64,000 bases of DNA from Catellatospora sichuanensis (lineage in GTDB: Bacteria > Actinomycetota > Actinomycetes > Mycobacteriales > Micromonosporaceae). The notes beneath the pieces were generated by a model. That model saw nothing but the letters and a program-made list of their open reading frames with translations. It was not told the DNA's origin and ran no database searches. The translations under genes and the position numbers were made by a program. The stretch spans positions 269,353 to 333,352 of the forward strand of contig NZ_ML660187.1 in the NCBI RefSeq assembly GCF_007483665.1, read 5' to 3'. Below, one piece after another: positions 5,610-20,999 of this stretch; the stretch's first letter is position 1; every line of letters begins with the position of its first letter.

Positions 5610-6896
5610 GTGAGCGAGGTAGCCGAGAAGCAGGCCGAACCCGGCACGGCCGTTCCCGCGCCGCGCCGACGGTTCTTCATGGACACCCGGCCACTGCGGC
5701 ACCGGCCGTACCGCCGGCTCTGGACCTCGACCATCGTGACCGCCCTGGGCAGCCAGCTGACCGCGGTCGCGGTGCCCAAGCAGATCTACGACATGACCGG
5801 GTCCTCGGTCTGGGTCGGCATCGCCAGTATCGCCGGGCTCGCCCCGCTGGTCGCGTTCGCGCTGTGGGGCGGCGCGATCGCCGACACCGTCGACCGCCGC
5901 CGGATGCTGCTGTTCACCAACTCCGGCATCGCCCTGCTGTGCATGCTCTTCTGGCTGCAGGCGGCGCTGGACGTGCAGTCCATCCCGCTGCTGCTGGTGC
6001 TGGTCGCCGTGCAGCAGGCACTGTTCGGCATGAACATGCCCGCGCGTACCGCCTCGGTAGCCCGGCTGGTGCCCGCCGCGGAGCTGCCCGCGGCCGGGGC
6101 GCTCAACTCGACCGTGATGCAGGGCGGGCAGATCGCCGGACCGATGCTGGCCGGCGCACTGATCCCGCTGCTCGGCCTGCCCTTGCTGTACCTGCTCGAC
6201 GCCATCGCGCTGTGCGCCGCGCTGTACGCCGTGTGGCGGCTGCCGTCGCTACCCCCGCTCAGCGGCGTCGCCCGCCGGGCCGGGCTGGCCGACATCCTGG
6301 CGGGCTTCCGCTACCTGGCCACCCACCGGCTGCTGATGGTCTCCATGGCCGCGGACGTCGTCGCCATGGTCTTCGGCATGCCGCGGGCACTGTTCCCGCA
6401 GCTGGCCGACACCGCCTTCCCCGGGGTGGACGAGAACTTCGCGCTGGGCATGCTCTACGCCGCGGTGCCGATCGGCGCCCTGCTGGGCGGCCTGCTGTCC
6501 GGCGTCTTCTCGCACGTACGCCGGCACGGCCTGATGGTGGTCATCGCGGTCTGCGCCTGGGGCGCGGCGATCGCGGGCTTCGGCCTGAGCAGCTCACTGT
6601 GGCTGGCCGTGGTGTTCCTCGGCATCGCCGGCGTCGCCGACATGGTCTCCATGGTGTTCCGCGGCGCGATCCTGCAGGCCGCGGCGACCGACGAGATGCG
6701 CGGCCGGATGCAGGGCATGCACACCGTCGTGGTGGCGGGTGGACCCCGGCTGGCGGACCTGCTGCACGGCGTGGCCGTGCCCGTGGCCGGCGCGAGCGCG
6801 GCGGTGGCCGGCGGTGGCGTGCTCGTGATCGTCGCCATGACCGCGCTCGCCCTGGCCGTGCCCGCGCTCCTGCGCTACCGCGGACCGGCCCGCTGA
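5610..6896 (+). CDS. MFS transporter (EntS/MFS_3 type)
   Basis: A 428-residue integral membrane protein with about 11-12 hydrophobic helices. It has the MFS signature loop GGAIADTVDRRRML between helices 2 and 3, and the N-terminal LRHRPYRRLW segment typical of the enterobactin-exporter-like MFS_3 family. It likely exports small molecules by proton antiport; the substrate is not evident. The GTG at 5610 (VSEVAEKQ) is preferred, with AAGG about 8 nt upstream; the in-frame ATG at 5502 would add unrelated sequence. It is divergent from the SigE-family sigma gene with about 185 bp between them, so the two promoters are back to back. Confidence 0.82.
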   Translation: MSEVAEKQAEPGTAVPAPRRRFFMDTRPLRHRPYRRLWTSTIVTALGSQLTAVAVPKQIYDMTGSSVWVGIASIAGLAPLVAFALWGGAIADTVDRRRMLLFTNSGIALLCMLFWLQAALDVQSIPLLLVLVAVQQALFGMNMPARTASVARLVPAAELPAAGALNSTVMQGGQIAGPMLAGALIPLLGLPLLYLLDAIALCAALYAVWRLPSLPPLSGVARRAGLADILAGFRYLATHRLLMVSMAADVVAMVFGMPRALFPQLADTAFPGVDENFALGMLYAAVPIGALLGGLLSGVFSHVRRHGLMVVIAVCAWGAAIAGFGLSSSLWLAVVFLGIAGVADMVSMVFRGAILQAAATDEMRGRMQGMHTVVVAGGPRLADLLHGVAVPVAGASAAVAGGGVLVIVAMTALALAVPALLRYRGPAR

Positions 6897-7012
6897 CGAG
6901 GGAGTCTGAACACCGATTAAGGTGGTCCGACCGGAGCAGGCCTGGTCCTGGCGTGGTGGGTTCACCGCGCCGCGAGGGCGGTTCCGCCCGCCCCCTCGGA
7001 ACGGAACAGCAC

Positions 7013-7870
7013 ATGCGCGTCACCCGGCGAAACAAGATCCTCCTGTCGGTGCTGGCATGCGTGCTGGTCCTGCCGGTGGTCACGGTCTTCGGCCTCAACC
7101 GGTACGTCAACGACACCTCCGTGCCGCTGACCGACAGCCTTTTCCCGGAAAGCGCGCCCAAGCGGCTGCTGGCGATCTTCGCGCACCCCGACGACGAGAT
7201 CACCGTGGCGGGCTCGCTGCGCCGGATGAGCGAAGAGGCCGACGCCGAGATCACCATCGCGTATCTCACCCGGGGCGAAGCGGCGGACGTACCCAAGGTC
7301 TCCCTGTCCGACCTCGCGGAGCGGCGCACGGTCGAGGCGAACAACGCCGGCAAGGTGCTCGGGGCCGACAACGTCGAGCTGTTCGACTTCCGTGACAGCG
7401 AGCTGCCCAAGGCCGACGCCGCCAAGGCGCAGGAGACCATCTCGGCCCTGATCGACGAGTACCGGCCCAGCGTCGTGATCAGCTTCGACGACCGGGTCGG
7501 CTTCTACGGGCACCCCGACCACGCGCAGGTCGGGGTCTGGGTCAAGACCGTGCTGAACACCCGGCGGCACGCGCCCGACTTCCCGGTCAAGCACTTCTAC
7601 CAGGCCACCCTGCCCGAGTCGATGATCTCGGTGGCGAAGGACCTGTCCCCCACCTTCCGGGACATGTACCCGAGCGACCCCGCGCAGGGCCTGCCCGAGC
7701 CGACGGTCGCCATGACCGTCGACAGCGTGGCGAGCGAGAAACGAGCAGCCCTCGACGCGCACGTAAGCCAGGTCACCGTCCTACAAGCGGTCCAACCCGC
7801 CTACGACAAACTCCCGTCCTGGATCTACTTCCGCATCCTCAGCCGCGAATACTTCACCCAGATCTTCTGA
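7013..7870 (+). CDS. PIG-L family (LmbE-like) deacetylase, membrane-anchored
   Basis: A 285-residue protein with an N-terminal hydrophobic helix (residues 9-28), probably a signal anchor. The LmbE/PIG-L fold follows: the zinc motif AHPDDE at 57-62 and the second metal motif GHPDH at 166-170. Family members remove N-acetyl groups from GlcNAc-type sugars (mycothiol, glycolipid or antibiotic intermediates). The substrate here is unknown, but the membrane anchor suggests an extracytoplasmic one. The ATG at 7013 is chosen because the hydrophobic anchor begins right after it. The longer frame upstream is the shadow of the MFS gene. Confidence 0.82.
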   Translation: MRVTRRNKILLSVLACVLVLPVVTVFGLNRYVNDTSVPLTDSLFPESAPKRLLAIFAHPDDEITVAGSLRRMSEEADAEITIAYLTRGEAADVPKVSLSDLAERRTVEANNAGKVLGADNVELFDFRDSELPKADAAKAQETISALIDEYRPSVVISFDDRVGFYGHPDHAQVGVWVKTVLNTRRHAPDFPVKHFYQATLPESMISVAKDLSPTFRDMYPSDPAQGLPEPTVAMTVDSVASEKRAALDAHVSQVTVLQAVQPAYDKLPSWIYFRILSREYFTQIF

Positions 7871-8865: not shown

Positions 8866-8881
8866 CCACAGTGGATGGCGT
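8866..8881 (+). repeat. Left 16-bp inverted repeat bounding the tRNA array
   Basis: CCACAGTGGATGGCGT. The exact reverse complement occurs at 10803-10818, on the other side of the nine-tRNA array. It may be a terminal inverted repeat of an inserted tRNA cassette or a duplicated regulatory motif. Confidence 0.6.
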
Positions 8882-8888
8882 CGCGAAG

Positions 8889-8962
8889 AGGCCTCGCCGG
8901 GAGTCGAACCCGAGTTCATCCGTTTTGCAGACGGAGCGCCCCACCCGGGACGTCACGAAGCC
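8889..8962 (-). tRNA. tRNA-Cys(GCA), atypical
   Basis: The acceptor stem GGCTTCG/CGAGGCC pairs fully with one G-U. The anticodon arm is TCCGT-CTGCAAA-ACGGA, giving GCA. The T arm is TCGGG-TTCGACT-CCCGG, and the discriminator is U. The D arm is odd: a CGTC/GGCG stem with loop CCGGGTGG lacks the usual A14 and A21. CCA is not encoded. It could be an accessory or degenerate copy rather than the main tRNA-Cys. First gene from the 3' end of the array. Confidence 0.6.
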
Positions 8963-8969
8963 GAGAACG

Positions 8970-9052
8970 TGCGGATGGGGAGATTCGAACTCCCTGAGCA
9001 CAAGGCACCCGGGTTACAGCCGGGCCCGACTCTCCATCGTCGGCGCATCCGC
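8970..9052 (-). tRNA. tRNA-Tyr(GTA)
   Basis: A class II tRNA of 83 nt. The acceptor is GCGGATG/CATCCGC with discriminator A, the anticodon arm is CCCGG-CTGTAAC-CCGGG, the variable region is long (13 nt), and the T arm is GGGAG-TTCGAAT-CTCCC. It lies 8 nt from the neighbouring tRNA, so the genes are almost certainly one transcript. Confidence 0.82.
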
Positions 9053-9070
9053 GTGGTGTTGCCTTTCGAG

Positions 9071-9144
9071 TAGCGCGGACGGGATTCGAACCCGCAACAC
9101 TCCTGCTTGAAAGGCAGGTGACTCTTCCGTTCGTCCACCGCGCC
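9071..9144 (-). tRNA. tRNA-Glu(TTC)
   Basis: The acceptor is GGCGCGG/CCGCGCT (first pair G-U), the anticodon arm CCTGC-CTTTCAA-GCAGG, and the T arm GCGGG-TTCGAAT-CCCGT. The D arm GGAC...GTC is acceptable. The weak first acceptor pair suggests divergence from a housekeeping copy. Confidence 0.75.
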
Positions 9145-9157
9145 GTGGACCTGCTGG

Positions 9158-9230
9158 TCGGGATGGCCGGACTCGAACCGGCGACCTCTCGCCCCCCAGA
9201 CGAGCGCGCCACCGACTGCGCCACATCCCG
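9158..9230 (-). tRNA. tRNA-Pro(GGG)
   Basis: The acceptor is CGGGATG/CATCCCG with discriminator A, the D arm GCGC...GCGC, the anticodon arm CTCGT-CTGGGGG-GCGAG, and the T arm GCCGG-TTCGAGT-CCGGC. It is a well-formed cloverleaf. Confidence 0.85.
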
Positions 9231-9237
9231 CAAGGAA

Positions 9238-9774
9238 TTACTGCTCGACCTCCTTGATGTATTTGTCCCGCCGCTGGGATTCGTGCGTCATCAGCTTCTC
9301 CCGGTGCAGTCGGTCCGCCCAGTCGTCCGACGCCCAGGTGTCCGACTCCGACACCGCGGCCTTGAACGAGCCCGGCGGTTCGGCGGGCATGGCCGCGAAC
9401 TGCTCCCGCATCGACCGGCGGCTGAGCAGGCCGGCCATGACCGCGGTCAACACTCCGTACGCGAGGAACTGCGCACGGATCAAGGGCGGCAACGTGGCCG
9501 AGGTCGCGGCAAGGATGAGCAGCATCAGTGTCAACAGCCCGGTGTTCAGGCCCAGCCGGCGGTAGGCCCGGGCGTCGGCCGCCTCGGTCCGGATCGCGTA
9601 GTGAACCAGGAACGCGGCGCTGCTGATGCAGACGAACACCCGGAACGCCACCGTCAGGTCGACGATGCCCGCGGTCACCACGTCGATGCCGTAGGCCGCA
9701 CCGAACCCGAGGTTCACGGCCAACGCGAGGTACGCCAGATGTGTGATCCGAATCGACTTCATGCGACCGACCAT
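9238..9774 (-). CDS. Four-helix integral membrane protein of unknown function within the tRNA array
   Basis: A 178-residue protein not recognised as a named family. It has about four hydrophobic segments (residues of roughly 11-33, 40-60, 75-95 and 99-115), followed by a charged cytoplasmic tail with KLMTHESQRRDKYIKE. The ATG at 9774 follows GGGGAG at good spacing. It lies between tRNA-Pro and tRNA-Arg in the same orientation as all nine tRNAs, so it is probably expressed in the same transcript. Small membrane proteins and HNH nucleases inside tRNA clusters are typical of phage-like cassettes, but nothing in this protein proves phage origin. Confidence 0.65.
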   Translation of the reverse strand: MVGRMKSIRITHLAYLALAVNLGFGAAYGIDVVTAGIVDLTVAFRVFVCISSAAFLVHYAIRTEAADARAYRRLGLNTGLLTLMLLILAATSATLPPLIRAQFLAYGVLTAVMAGLLSRRSMREQFAAMPAEPPGSFKAAVSESDTWASDDWADRLHREKLMTHESQRRDKYIKEVEQ

Positions 9775-9830
9775 AGATCATCTCCCCGGTTCGCCGGGGT
9801 CCCGCACGGTGGCCCTCACGTGAGCTGCCG

Positions 9831-9904
9831 TGCCCTGAGCAGGATTCGAACCTGCAACCCCCGGCTTCGTAGACCGGTGCGCTGTCCAGTTGCGCCATCA
9901 GGGC
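9831..9904 (-). tRNA. tRNA-Arg(ACG)
   Basis: The acceptor is GCCCTGA/TCAGGGC with discriminator A, the D arm GCGC...GCGC, the anticodon arm CCGGT-CTACGAA-GCCGG, and the T arm GCAGG-TTCGAAT-CCTGC. It is a well-formed cloverleaf reading CGN codons through inosine. Confidence 0.87.
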
Positions 9905-9915
9905 GGGTGGAACCG

Positions 9916-9988
9916 TGGACCCAGCCGGACTTGAACCGGCCGCCTCCGCTTTGCAAGAGCGGTGCTCTACCAGATGAGCTATAGGCCC
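9916..9988 (-). tRNA. tRNA-Ala(TGC), array copy
   Basis: The acceptor is GGGCCTA/TGGGTCC with two G-U pairs, the D arm GCTC...GAGC, the anticodon arm CCGCT-CTTGCAA-AGCGG, and the T arm GCCGG-TTCAAGT-CCGGC. It is distinct from the canonical tRNA-Ala(TGC) at 13432-13504, so this isoacceptor is present twice in the window with different bodies. Confidence 0.82.
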
Positions 9989-10000
9989 GTATGTACTGCG

Positions 10001-10071
10001 CTCGCGGGCGAGGATTCGAACCTCGATTCCCTGATCCAAAATCAGGTGTCCTGCCCTTGGACGACCCGCGA
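10001..10071 (-). tRNA. tRNA-Gln(TTG)
   Basis: The acceptor is TCGCGGG/CCCGCGA with discriminator G, the anticodon arm CCTGA-TTTTGGA-TCAGG, and the T arm CGAGG-TTCGAAT-CCTCG. A 5' U and 3' G are usual for tRNA-Gln. Confidence 0.83.
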
Positions 10072-10101
10072 AAGTGGCTGCGGACCCCCACCCGCAGCCC
10101 G

Positions 10102-10130
10102 GAGCTGCGGGCCCCGTGGCCCCGCAGCTC
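10102..10130 (-). terminator. Hairpin after the HNH gene
   Basis: A 10-bp perfect stem (GAGCTGCGGG/CCCGCAGCTC) with a 9-nt loop starts 4 nt past the HNH stop codon. No T-run follows, so it may be an RNA-processing or stabilising structure between the nuclease mRNA and tRNA-Gln. Confidence 0.45.
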
Positions 10131-10133
10131 GTG

Positions 10134-10577
10134 TCAGCGCCTGGCCAGCACCGTCCAGGAGGGTGCCGACGGGTTGAACCGCAGCGGCATCCGCGCCTCG
10201 GCGGGCGTGCGGTCACCCTTGCGCTGATTGCAGCCGCCACAGGCGGCCACCGTGTTGAGCCAGGTGTTGCGCCCGCCCCGGGAGCTGGGCAGGACATGGT
10301 CGATGGTGTACGCCGGACCGCCGCAGTAGGCGCACCGGTGCTGGTCACGGGCGAGCACGCCGCGCCGCGACCAGGCCGGCCCGCCGTGGTAGCGCCAGCG
10401 GGTCACCACGTAGCTGACCAGGCGCACCACCTTGGGCATCGGCCAGACACCGATCGCCTGGTCGGGTTCCGCCTCGTGCACCACCGCGACCTGCCGCCAC
10501 AGCATGCGCAGGGCGTGACGCAGGCTGACCCGGTGGAGCGGGCCGAGATCGGCGTTGAGGACGAGTACTGCGTTCAT
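10134..10577 (-). CDS. HNH endonuclease in the tRNA array
   Basis: A 147-residue HNH nuclease. Zinc-binding cysteine pairs lie at Cys82/Cys85 (CAYC) and Cys113/Cys116 (CGGC). The catalytic DH is at 93-94 (TIDHVLP), the HNH Asn is near 108 (WLNTV), followed by NQRKGDRTP. The ATG at 10577 has an excellent AGGAGGTGA SD 6 nt upstream, which fixes the start; the frame runs on upstream only through the neighbouring tRNA genes. Such stand-alone HNH proteins occur both as conserved actinobacterial genes and in phages. Here it is embedded co-directionally among tRNAs, so it may be the mobility or maintenance function of the cassette. Confidence 0.85.
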   Translation of the reverse strand: MNAVLVLNADLGPLHRVSLRHALRMLWRQVAVVHEAEPDQAIGVWPMPKVVRLVSYVVTRWRYHGGPAWSRRGVLARDQHRCAYCGGPAYTIDHVLPSSRGGRNTWLNTVAACGGCNQRKGDRTPAEARMPLRFNPSAPSWTVLARR

Positions 10578-10608
10578 CGGGTCACCTCCTGGGAATGCGT
10601 GATGGATG

Positions 10609-10682
10609 TGGAGCGGTAGCCGGGAATCGAACCCGGATCTCTGCCATGGCGAGGCAGCGCACTGCCGTTGTGCGACAACCGC
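10609..10682 (-). tRNA. tRNA-Gly(GCC) with encoded CCA, one acceptor mismatch
   Basis: The D arm is GCAC...GTGC, the anticodon arm CTGCC-TCGCCAT-GGCAG, and the T arm CCGGG-TTCGATT-CCCGG. The acceptor GCGGTTG/CTACCGC has a T-T mismatch at pair 6-67. The discriminator U is followed by a genomic CCA, unlike the other array members whose 3' flank was checked (Arg, Cys, Glu). Confidence 0.8.
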
Positions 10683-10699
10683 GAGCTTCTTTTCTTGCG

Positions 10700-10770
10700 T
10701 GGTCGATGCGGGACTCGAACCCGCTTTCCCGCGTCGAGAGCGCGGAGGCCTACCCATAGCCGAATCGACC
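10700..10770 (-). tRNA. tRNA-Glu(CTC)
   Basis: The acceptor is GGTCGAT/ATCGACC with discriminator A, the anticodon arm CCGCG-CTCTCGA-CGCGG, and the T arm GCGGG-TTCGAGT-CCCGC. It is the promoter-proximal tRNA of the array. Confidence 0.78.
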
Positions 10771-10802
10771 GCTGCGCCGCGCAACGCGACGCGCTTTCTC
10801 TT

Positions 10803-10826
10803 ACGCCATCCACTGTGGAGTTCTCA
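10803..10826 (-). promoter_or_regulatory. Right 16-bp inverted repeat and rRNA-leader-like motif upstream of the tRNA array
   Basis: On the minus strand this reads TTGAGAACTCCACAGTGG and continues into ATGGCGT. The TTGAGAACTC core matches the conserved actinobacterial rRNA leader element found upstream of 16S genes. The 16-bp part 10803-10818 is the exact inverse of 8866-8881. Placed about 30 nt upstream of the first tRNA, it probably lies in the leader of the array transcript. Confidence 0.5.
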
Positions 10827-10898
10827 AGGTGCGACACCGCCGACGGGGGTCAGGGCTTCGTGCTGTCTTCGCTGATCACAGGTGCCGGACAAAAGAAA

Positions 10899-10932
10899 CG
10901 CCGCCCGCTTCCGAGTCCGGAGGCGGGCGGCG
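10899..10932 (-). terminator. GC-rich hairpin followed by T-rich tract on the minus strand
   Basis: CGCCGCCCGC pairs with GCGGGCGGCG across a 14-nt loop that can pair partly further. On the minus strand it is followed by GTTTCTTTTG. No minus-strand gene is seen upstream, so it could be an attenuator ahead of the tRNA array or the end of an unrecognised short RNA. Confidence 0.35.
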
Positions 10933-11178
10933 AAAGCCGCTTGTCATGGCGCTTGCTCAGCACCATCCGCCTCGTCCGGGGACGAGTTCCCAGCCATAAC
11001 CCTCACCGCGTCGGGCGGCGGCGGGCATGGCGCTCTCGACGCACGGCGTCAGCCGCTGCATCGCATACGAGAAGCTGCTCATGTCTGTCTCCGGTCCGTA
11101 TTCTCGCGGTGTCGTTCTTGGTGTGGGCATACCGTATTGGCCGCCGTATCGGCGAGGCAACCTCATTTTTCGCGGCTG

Positions 11179-19821: not shown

Positions 19822-20376
19822 ATGGGTCTGGACAACGTCGCGGTGCAGTGGCCGGCCACGGGCCGCTTCTACGACCCGGTGGCGCCCGCGGAATTCGTCG
19901 ACTTCGCCGAGCTGGCCGAACAGCCGAGCACCGCCGCGCCGACCGCCGCGCTGGCAGGTCACATCGCCCGTACCGGCACGGTCCGCGCGACGGCGTACAC
20001 CGAGGTCGTCGATCTGCTGCTCGGGCTCAAAGGTGTGCTCTACGCCACCGAGGCCGCCGAGGAGGACGAGGACCCGGTCATCGACCCCGACGGCTGCGCC
20101 TGGATCGCCGGCGGCCTGGAGAAGTTCGTCGCGGGACACGCACCGCACGGCGACGCCGTCACGTTCGACAGCGTCGCCGCGGTGCTTCGTGCCGCGCTGA
20201 CCGATTCCCGACTTCCCGAGCAGCAGCTGCGCTGGCTCGAACAGCGCCTGGACTCGCTGCGCGAGGAGACCGACGGCGACCCGCAGTGGAGCTTCCCGCT
20301 GTCGGAGTTCGCGGTGCTCGCCCAGTTCTACCGCCGCTGCGCCGACCGCGGGTTCGCCGTCTACGCCGAATCCTGA
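19822..20376 (+). CDS. Conserved hypothetical protein (unknown function)
   Basis: A 184-residue, acidic, soluble protein starting MGLDNVAVQWPATGRFYDPV. It has no signal peptide, membrane helix or recognised catalytic motif. The pattern (an N-terminal strand, then an alpha-helical body with CAWIAGGLEKFVAG and PLSEFAVLAQFYRRCAD) looks like a conserved actinobacterial hypothetical, but I cannot name the family. The ATG at 19822 is preferred over upstream in-frame starts because the preceding residues look non-coding. Its 3' end overlaps the convergent CSC-motif gene by 16 nt. Confidence 0.6.
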   Translation: MGLDNVAVQWPATGRFYDPVAPAEFVDFAELAEQPSTAAPTAALAGHIARTGTVRATAYTEVVDLLLGLKGVLYATEAAEEDEDPVIDPDGCAWIAGGLEKFVAGHAPHGDAVTFDSVAAVLRAALTDSRLPEQQLRWLEQRLDSLREETDGDPQWSFPLSEFAVLAQFYRRCADRGFAVYAES

Positions 20377-20924: not shown

Positions 20925-20999
20925 GGCCCTCAGATGCCCTACCGGCCACCCGGGTTCCGAAGATCCGGACCCGCACCGCGGCGCACCGCCAAGACCACT

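Follow-up and report, generated by a model that had tools for sequence, protein, structure and literature searches.

Why should a set of transfer RNA (tRNA) genes be closed off at both ends by the same sequence, once upright and once inverted? The question is raised by a locus of Catellatospora sichuanensis (Micromonosporaceae) that lies within 64,000 nucleotides (nt) of contig NZ_ML660187.1 (positions 269,353–333,352; assembly GCF_007483665.1), a stretch referred to here as the window. Nine tRNA genes, all on the minus strand, and a gene for an HNH endonuclease are crowded there between the two copies of an exact 16-bp inverted repeat (8866–8881 and 10803–10818). A first-pass annotation, made from the letters alone, had described the nine tRNAs of one direction in under 2 kb, the nuclease and the exact repeat, all of which were confirmed, and had taken the repeat for the edge of a mobile cassette. 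Our analysis leads to a different answer. The array probably carries a boxA of the ribosomal RNA (rRNA) type and a leader–trailer helix, by which a long, untranslated precursor of the tRNAs would be transcribed under antitermination and processed from end to end; comparison at the sequence level suggests that such tRNA clusters, including related ones on plasmids and in viral sequences, borrow the production line of rRNA.

A boxA-like motif common to the array and the rRNA leaders

On the minus strand the upstream arm of the repeat directly abuts the boxA-like motif TTGAGAACT (10819–10827), so that the sequence reads TTGAGAACT-CCACAG; with these next six bases the motif becomes TTGAGAACTCCACAG (10827–10813). 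A genome search for TTGARAACTCNACAG at no more than one mismatch returned six places: three exact ones in rRNA leaders, one exact one in the array and two with a single mismatch on contig C1. The three rRNA-leader sites stand at contig ends and run, on visual inspection, into the 5′ end of the 16S rRNA. Fourteen of 15 bases are common to the array boxA and all three leaders, which identifies the array motif with the boxA of the host rrn operons. None of the other five sites has a gene of the genome's Rfam tRNA list within 10 kb. In mycobacterial rRNA leaders a conserved block, CL2, codes for a putative BoxA antitermination element (PMC10218544; papers are cited by PubMed Central identifier and from excerpts).

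The rRNA of the same genome has the pairing as well. The leader sequence ACTCAACAGGGTGCTA (L070) pairs with TGGCACCCTGTTGGGT in the 16S–23S spacer (L066) over 16 pairs, two of them G–U; this is the best helix between the two stretches, and it starts inside the same boxA motif. Leader and spacer are on different contigs, presumably owing to rRNA copies collapsed in the assembly.

The association between the motif and tRNA genes was followed in two directions. A motif-first scan with the 23-base pattern TTGARAACTCNACAGYGGATGGC retrieved 20 stretches from 257 billion bases of genomes and two viral contigs from IMG/VR, and in all 22 it is tRNA genes of the same orientation that come after the motif, numbering from two (where the stretch breaks off) to 35, making the leader motif a sequence signature that finds arrays without annotation. 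Six of these 22 stretches are genomes already present in our HNH-based set. Two of the 20 genome stretches are titled Micromonosporaceae, and the remaining genera we take to be members of this family. Starting from the HNH gene instead, the leader was found in 19 of 19 tRNA arrays (19–25 of 25 positions, L054 and L056 being lowest) and in none of five HNH loci without an array (15–16 of 25 positions).

A side observation concerns contig C1, where the two one-mismatch motifs (984–1398) precede short open reading frames (ORFs) near the contig start, with a tRNA at 20106 and an HNH-like match at 20935; together these features suggest another mobile element.

Pairing and covariation of leader and trailer

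The leader (5′) arm of the helix, CCACAGTGGATGGCGT (10803–10818, minus strand), is the exact inverse of 8866–8881. There, 8 nt after the last tRNA, lies the trailer (3′) arm ACGCCATCCACTGTGG (minus strand), which with 16 of 16 pairs ranks first among the possible partners of the leader arm within the stretch tested. A partner with 13–16 of 16 pairs was likewise the best in the locus for 27 of 29 Micromonosporaceae arrays, and in 26 of those 27 it lies no more than 119 nt after a called tRNA. The uninterrupted helices of the arrays measure 9 to 20 pairs. Not every tRNA gene is enclosed: a Trp gene stands outside, upstream of the helix, in several arrays, and a Met gene outside, downstream, in L118, L130 and L132 among others. 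The trailer tests were run without L117, L120, L125, L127, L128 and L129, taken as genomes already included, and without L121, L122 and L123, in which the array extends past the end of the stretch. L119, L153 and L207 belong to the leader and trailer survey but not to the 16-pair partner test, while L170, L192 and L217 were kept in that test; their stretches end 21 to 329 nt past the last called tRNA, and no trailer was seen in them.

An alignment of 25 distinct arm pairs, from 31 of 41 loci, showed covariation. Standard pairs made up 94.8% of its 400 cells versus 85.4% after shuffling, a value that holds only for arrays with a trailer, since ten loci without a clear full-length trailer were left out (L054, L113, L137, L143, L232, L233, L138, L170, L192 and L217). 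Ten of the 16 pairs had changed on both sides (3.4 in shuffled alignments), and such double changes occupied 38 cells (5.8 in shuffled ones); none of 500 shuffles reached any of these values, although one cell is not independent of another and all of these counts may be inflated by relatedness. Sliding the partner by one to three columns left 26–55% paired. The internal one-sided departures comprised 15 G–U, six A–C and one other, mainly those that RNA pairing would be expected to favor. Covarying, complementary arms directly flanking the mature RNAs were found, but not in every array.

The strongest covariation cases are viral contigs L179, L147 and L178, whose arms resemble the others only in the first bases and nevertheless pair 2–3 nt past the last tRNA: in L179, CCACAGCGTGAGCATCG joins CGATGCTCACGCTGTGG by 17 of 17 pairs, and L147 and L178 form 17 pairs each with one G–U. 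The scores of these helices, 16.4–17.0, compare with maxima of 10.8–13.4 for 20 shuffled arms each. On plasmids, the Frondihabitans array has a 14-bp helix made with another arm, the partner lying just before its HNH gene. Five mycobacterial plasmid arrays (L137, L138, L143, L232 and L233) match the boxA core at 15 of 15 positions, and three of them form helices of 9, 10 and 11 bp immediately behind a tRNA. When plasmid trailers were sought by duplex energy, GC-rich DNA gave many strong duplexes. In L232, the plasmid of Mycolicibacterium sp. TY66, we also observed a second, longer partner of 15 pairs (one G–U) about 1 kb beyond the 11-bp one.

A looser motif scan of IMG/VR was evaluated on 80 of 90 stretches; 15 of the 80 sites have a tRNA nearby, and 13 of these are preceded by tRNA-Trp at −99 to −126. 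boxA may be widely used by actinophages. In one IMG/VR sequence, L219, the motif runs into GGGATAGGAGCCC, which we assume to be the start-associated sequence of some mycobacteriophages.

Several observations weigh against the reading of the array as a boxA-led precursor closed by a leader–trailer helix. Among the Micromonosporaceae, 1.7 kb separate the last called tRNA of L051 from the partner downstream, the partner in L113 is only 10 bp (4 nt after a tRNA), and no convincing trailer was found in L054; the partner on the Frondihabitans plasmid is some 770 nt beyond the last called tRNA, and two of the five boxA-bearing mycobacterial plasmid arrays (L233 and L138) gave no trailer. For L137 and L232 the partner after the tRNA, which is not the top one of its locus, was selected by position once the viral cases were known. 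Elsewhere the best partner in the locus was taken, a procedure that itself favors pairing. Some swapped or shuffled arms reach 14–15 of 16 pairs in single loci, L047 (13 of 16) has a second site with equal pairs, and pair 5-34 is unpaired in four rows (A–C on visual inspection). The 5′ arm is conserved in sequence beyond the needs of pairing, and conservation is lower in the trailer arm than in the leader arm (diversity 0.216 versus 0.110, with 0.321 in the spacers). As to the motif, 65 of the 80 viral sites have no nearby tRNA, and the motif alone therefore has other uses in viruses; conversely, the tRNA-bearing plasmid or phage loci L136, L141, L234, L235, L237 and L238 are without it (best core 11 of 15). 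Finally, the promoter scan found no promoter.

The identity of the boxA, the pairing of the arms, their covariation and placement, and the conservation of the tRNA and HNH genes are read directly from the DNA, and the mechanism that we consider probable would be built on them as follows. The array would be transcribed as a single long RNA, for the most part untranslated and built in its outer parts like a pre-16S rRNA unit. A boxA-type element (TTGAGAACTC) close to the 5′ end would recruit the Nus antitermination complex and thereby keep Rho from stopping the polymerase on ribosome-free RNA; a need for antitermination is plausible because an RNA of 1–9 kb that is mostly without ribosomes would be open to Rho. 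The 16 nt after boxA would pair with the 16 nt just past the last tRNA and close the precursor into a loop, as in pre-16S rRNA, whereupon an RNase III-type enzyme would cut the helix and RNase P together with 3′ nucleases would free the tRNAs. In Escherichia coli rRNA, boxA is the binding site of NusB, the antitermination complex is resistant to Rho, RNase III cuts the leader–trailer helices, and a 16S helix of more than 17 bp is critical for the 30S subunit (PMC10250234). Since the array helices, at 9–20 uninterrupted pairs, are mostly at or under this E. coli figure, they may hold or protect the ends rather than serve as classic RNase III sites. A broader proposal, to which we give a little better than an even chance, is that many actinobacterial arrays on chromosomes, plasmids and viruses are mimics of pre-16S rRNA, each combining the boxA of its host with a self-matched helix, and that the antitermination and maturation enzymes of host rRNA would process precursors of up to about 9 kb with rRNA-like efficiency.

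Array genes, genomic setting and alternative explanations

All genes of the array are on the minus strand and are described here in the direction of reading. ARAGORN and the Rfam tRNA model both identified tRNA-Glu(ctc), the first gene (10699–10770), and tRNA-Gly(gcc) (10609–10682), which has the anticodon loop TCGCCAT with C at position 33. These are followed by the HNH gene (10134–10577; 147 amino acids; PF14279, PHROG 16726), whose PF14279 match (E = 1.3e-13) was scored on the longer frame 10134–10784. Next come tRNA-Gln(ttg) (10000–10071), tRNA-Ala(tgc) (9915–9988) and tRNA-Arg(acg) (9830–9904), then, beyond an ORF of 178 amino acids (9238–9774), tRNA-Pro(ggg) (9155–9230) and tRNA-Glu(ttc) (9070–9144), all five tRNAs again called by both methods; tRNA-Tyr(gta) (8969–9052) was called by ARAGORN. 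In the window ARAGORN called eight of the nine, all on the minus strand. The ninth, the weakly scoring tRNA-Cys(gca) (8890–8962), was found in the genome search with the Rfam tRNA model at 34.6 bits, above the cut-off; ARAGORN calls the Cys gene in four of ten other Catellatospora loci (L041, L043, L044 and L047). The possibility that this gene encodes a selenocysteine-like tRNA was considered and rejected, the score on the tRNA-Sec model being 45 bits for a cut-off of 47 and the anticodon being GCA.

The first-pass annotation had also placed a small membrane protein among the tRNAs. The ORF is indeed present, as the 178-amino-acid frame between the Arg and Pro tRNAs, but its membrane character was judged by eye only and it had no family match in Pfam, PHROGs, NCBIfam or PADLOC. 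It belongs to this genome only, with no tblastn match in L038–L048, and in L038–L047 the Arg and Pro tRNAs are close neighbors. Relatives of the HNH gene occur in the ten other Catellatospora genomes at 87–99% identity. Compared with seven of these genomes, the proportion of nonsynonymous differences (pN) is 0.006–0.049 and that of synonymous ones (pS) 0.096–0.218; in the remaining three the frame is intact.

Upstream of the array leader is a terminator-like hairpin with a T-run (10899–10932, minus strand; inverted repeat I22), similar to a hairpin seen by eye in the ten other Catellatospora loci; it is not among the results of the terminator scan. A 41-amino-acid ORF (10957–11082, minus strand) ends in GYGWELVPGRGGWC, has a ribosome-site-like GGAGAC on visual inspection and is followed by a hairpin and T-run; it is present in seven of the ten other loci (L038–L044) and possibly encodes a small secreted or modified peptide.

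The array was found in all 11 Catellatospora genomes. In ten of them the gyrA-side block (tRNA-Ile and tRNA-Ala, mostly with DUF3566 in view) lies upstream, 0.7 to about 21 kb off; in the eleventh (L039) the contig ends before this block, and a PALP gene and the 41-amino-acid ORF flank the array as they do in the window. The PALP gene adjoins the array in nine of the 11, the contig of L045 ending at that point and L046 showing no such gene. Behind gyrA in other genera, the Ile and Ala tRNAs are present in all 15 genera fetched from 27 other genomes with a gyrA match, but neither an array nor an HNH or PALP gene lies within 13–14 kb. Since the gyrA block of all 15 is without an array, the array appears to have been gained on the way to the genus Catellatospora, the comparison of empty sites leaving its exact ends undefined. 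(In the tblastn comparison of neighborhoods, frame 5864–7870 gave many low-identity matches with filtering off and was disregarded.) In other genera the HNH gene is 69–81% identical and sits inside arrays of up to 35 tRNAs; the slot Gly(gcc)-HNH-Gln(ctg) is shared by six of seven larger arrays, and the 36-tRNA array of Micromonospora craterilacus (L114) contains all nine isoacceptor identities in the same order, Gln as ctg. Because the array is genus-wide, its HNH gene sits in larger arrays elsewhere and its nine isoacceptors recur in order in M. craterilacus, the Catellatospora array looks like an old, vertically kept and domesticated remnant of the bigger arrays of Actinobacteria, which in relatives comprise as many as 36 tRNAs.

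With this setting in hand, the reading of the repeat as the ends of a mobile DNA cassette, recognized by a recombinase or by the HNH nuclease, can be weighed, and we regard it as highly improbable. The wider half of the first-pass interpretation stands, in that arrays with HNH genes do travel on actinobacterial mobile DNA (plasmids, viral contigs and Arthrobacter phage Mimi, with tRNAs beside an HNH gene); moreover, the two 16-mers form an exact inverted pair here, and repeats at the ends of an element, too, can retain their match to one another. What failed was the role assigned to the repeat. The 16-mer occurs at exactly two places in the window and in the 9.45-Mb genome, the same two sites (8866, and inverted at 10803), with five further genome places at one or two mismatches. 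The surroundings of the array match in 11 of 11 Catellatospora genomes, so that neither further exact copies nor a variable position speak for transposon or cassette ends, which were rejected on these grounds. On visual inspection the arms are flanked by the five bases GGCAC (preceding 8866) and AGTTC (following 10818), which give no target-site duplication. One arm starts inside the rRNA-leader motif, and the rRNA of the same genome has the same pairing; the arms are kept by paired changes; and Trp, sometimes Met, tRNA genes in many larger arrays, as well as the HNH gene on the Frondihabitans plasmid, sit outside the arms. The length of the repeat is in itself unremarkable (23 of 100 shuffles gave at least two matches when up to three mismatches were allowed, and longer imperfect inverted repeats lie within the same 3.8 kb); its weight comes from conservation, placement and covariation. 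An ancestral operon, which the first-pass annotation would have recognized by the same place in all relatives and the lack of other copies of the tRNA genes, agrees with the data on the first point, whereas the isoacceptors do have other copies in the genome.

The upstream block could alternatively be a promoter, with TTGAGA as its −35 element, and in the window TAAGAG does follow TTGAGA after 18 nt. This, too, we judge very unlikely, and the promoter reading was rejected: the supposed −10 element varies from array to array (GGCATTTT, GGCAACTG, GGCATACA and GGCACAAC are examples) whereas AACTC is conserved, the promoter scan was without sites, and the paired trailer would be left unexplained. 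It is also unlikely that the array is a decaying, non-functional relic that keeps some sequence by chance. Its nine anticodons are redundant and its gene content varies among the ten relatives, with no Gln called in six (L040–L044 and L047), no Gly in L042 and no Glu(ttc) in L045–L047. Yet pairwise diversity among the 11 Catellatospora arrays is 0.068 for the tRNAs and 0.053 for boxA, compared with 0.321 for the spacers; the pN of the HNH gene is well below pS; and leader and trailer form 13–16 of 16 pairs in every one of the 11. The reading of the array as a boxA-led, helix-closed tRNA precursor is thus the one that we retain.

Redundant tRNAs, related systems and biological meaning

Every one of the nine array anticodons has another gene in the same genome, and the array is in this sense redundant in its isotypes. 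As the first-pass annotation had noticed, several of these tRNAs differ from housekeeping forms; the identity to the housekeeping gene of the same anticodon is 61–81% for the seven anticodons compared (Ala and Cys were left out). The spare tRNAs form a second, sequence-divergent set that may be kept in reserve against translation stress, as in Anabaena (PMC10272220), or against tRNA-cleaving toxins. Another purpose, which we put forward tentatively and at somewhat less than even chance, is that the array is kept for codon supply or for resistance to anticodon nucleases by way of altered anticodon loops; this is a question of purpose and is compatible with the boxA-and-helix mechanism. Evasion of such nucleases has been proposed for mycobacteriophage tRNAs, which bear loop changes at known cleavage sites (PMC10264068), and the array Gly(gcc) has C instead of U at loop position 33 in ten of ten genes called. 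On the other side, when the nine array tRNAs are compared with the housekeeping gene at the four loop positions outside the anticodon, seven of 36 places differ, no more than in the tRNAs as a whole (19–39% different). As a signal visible in the sequence, evasion through the anticodon loop was therefore rejected, there being no excess of loop changes over background. In larger arrays, C33 occurs in certain Ala(ggc), Leu(gag) and Val(gac) genes as well.

Among known systems the closest in its outer parts is the rrn operon leader of the same genome, which shares with the array the boxA motif, the region in which the helix arm starts and a similar arm length; it encloses 16S rRNA, whereas the array encloses tRNAs and the HNH gene. 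A tRNA array unit has been defined by at least 20 tRNA genes at a density of at least two per kb, and isotype redundancy with the rest of the genome is usual in such units without being part of the definition (PMC5966550). With nine tRNAs in 1.95 kb, the Catellatospora array has the required density but falls short of the number. The mycobacterial units on chromosomes, plasmids and phages (PMC5966550, PMC12803027) resemble it in their dense, redundant tRNAs and, often, an HNH gene; they differ in that, in the excerpts, their flanks are reported to be without common features (PMC5966550) or without sequence similarity (PMC12803027). The words boxA, antitermination, leader and RNase III are absent from the main texts of both papers. 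The trn operon of Anabaena (26 tRNAs, on a megaplasmid) is likewise a redundant tRNA operon and is induced by translation stress, but unlike the array it belongs to a cyanobacterium and is repressed by TrcR (PMC10272220); boxA, leader and RNase III are absent from the main text of that paper.

In titles and abstract openings of the open-licence literature, boxA or a leader–trailer helix was never joined to tRNA arrays among the matches listed, and the same literature gave nothing on boxA antitermination of tRNA operons or boxA antitermination in mycobacteriophages. A comparable use of boxA is the antitermination of CRISPR arrays, described in proteobacteria, in which boxA precedes a long untranslated array; those systems are not known to have a leader–trailer helix. 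The parts are known; what appears to be new is that they are combined, and that this combination extends across several actinobacterial groups, in chromosomes, plasmids and viral contigs.

Phages and plasmids have long been known to carry tRNA arrays, but the available portions of the array papers do not deal with the transcription and processing of an untranslated tRNA precursor several kilobases in length, and the shared rRNA-type boxA with its closing helix offers a concrete and testable mechanism, for which the Catellatospora array provides a domesticated chromosomal model. If the mimicry of pre-16S rRNA is true, it would couple the supply of spare tRNAs to the machinery that makes rRNA, perhaps even while the cell is infected or attacked by toxins.

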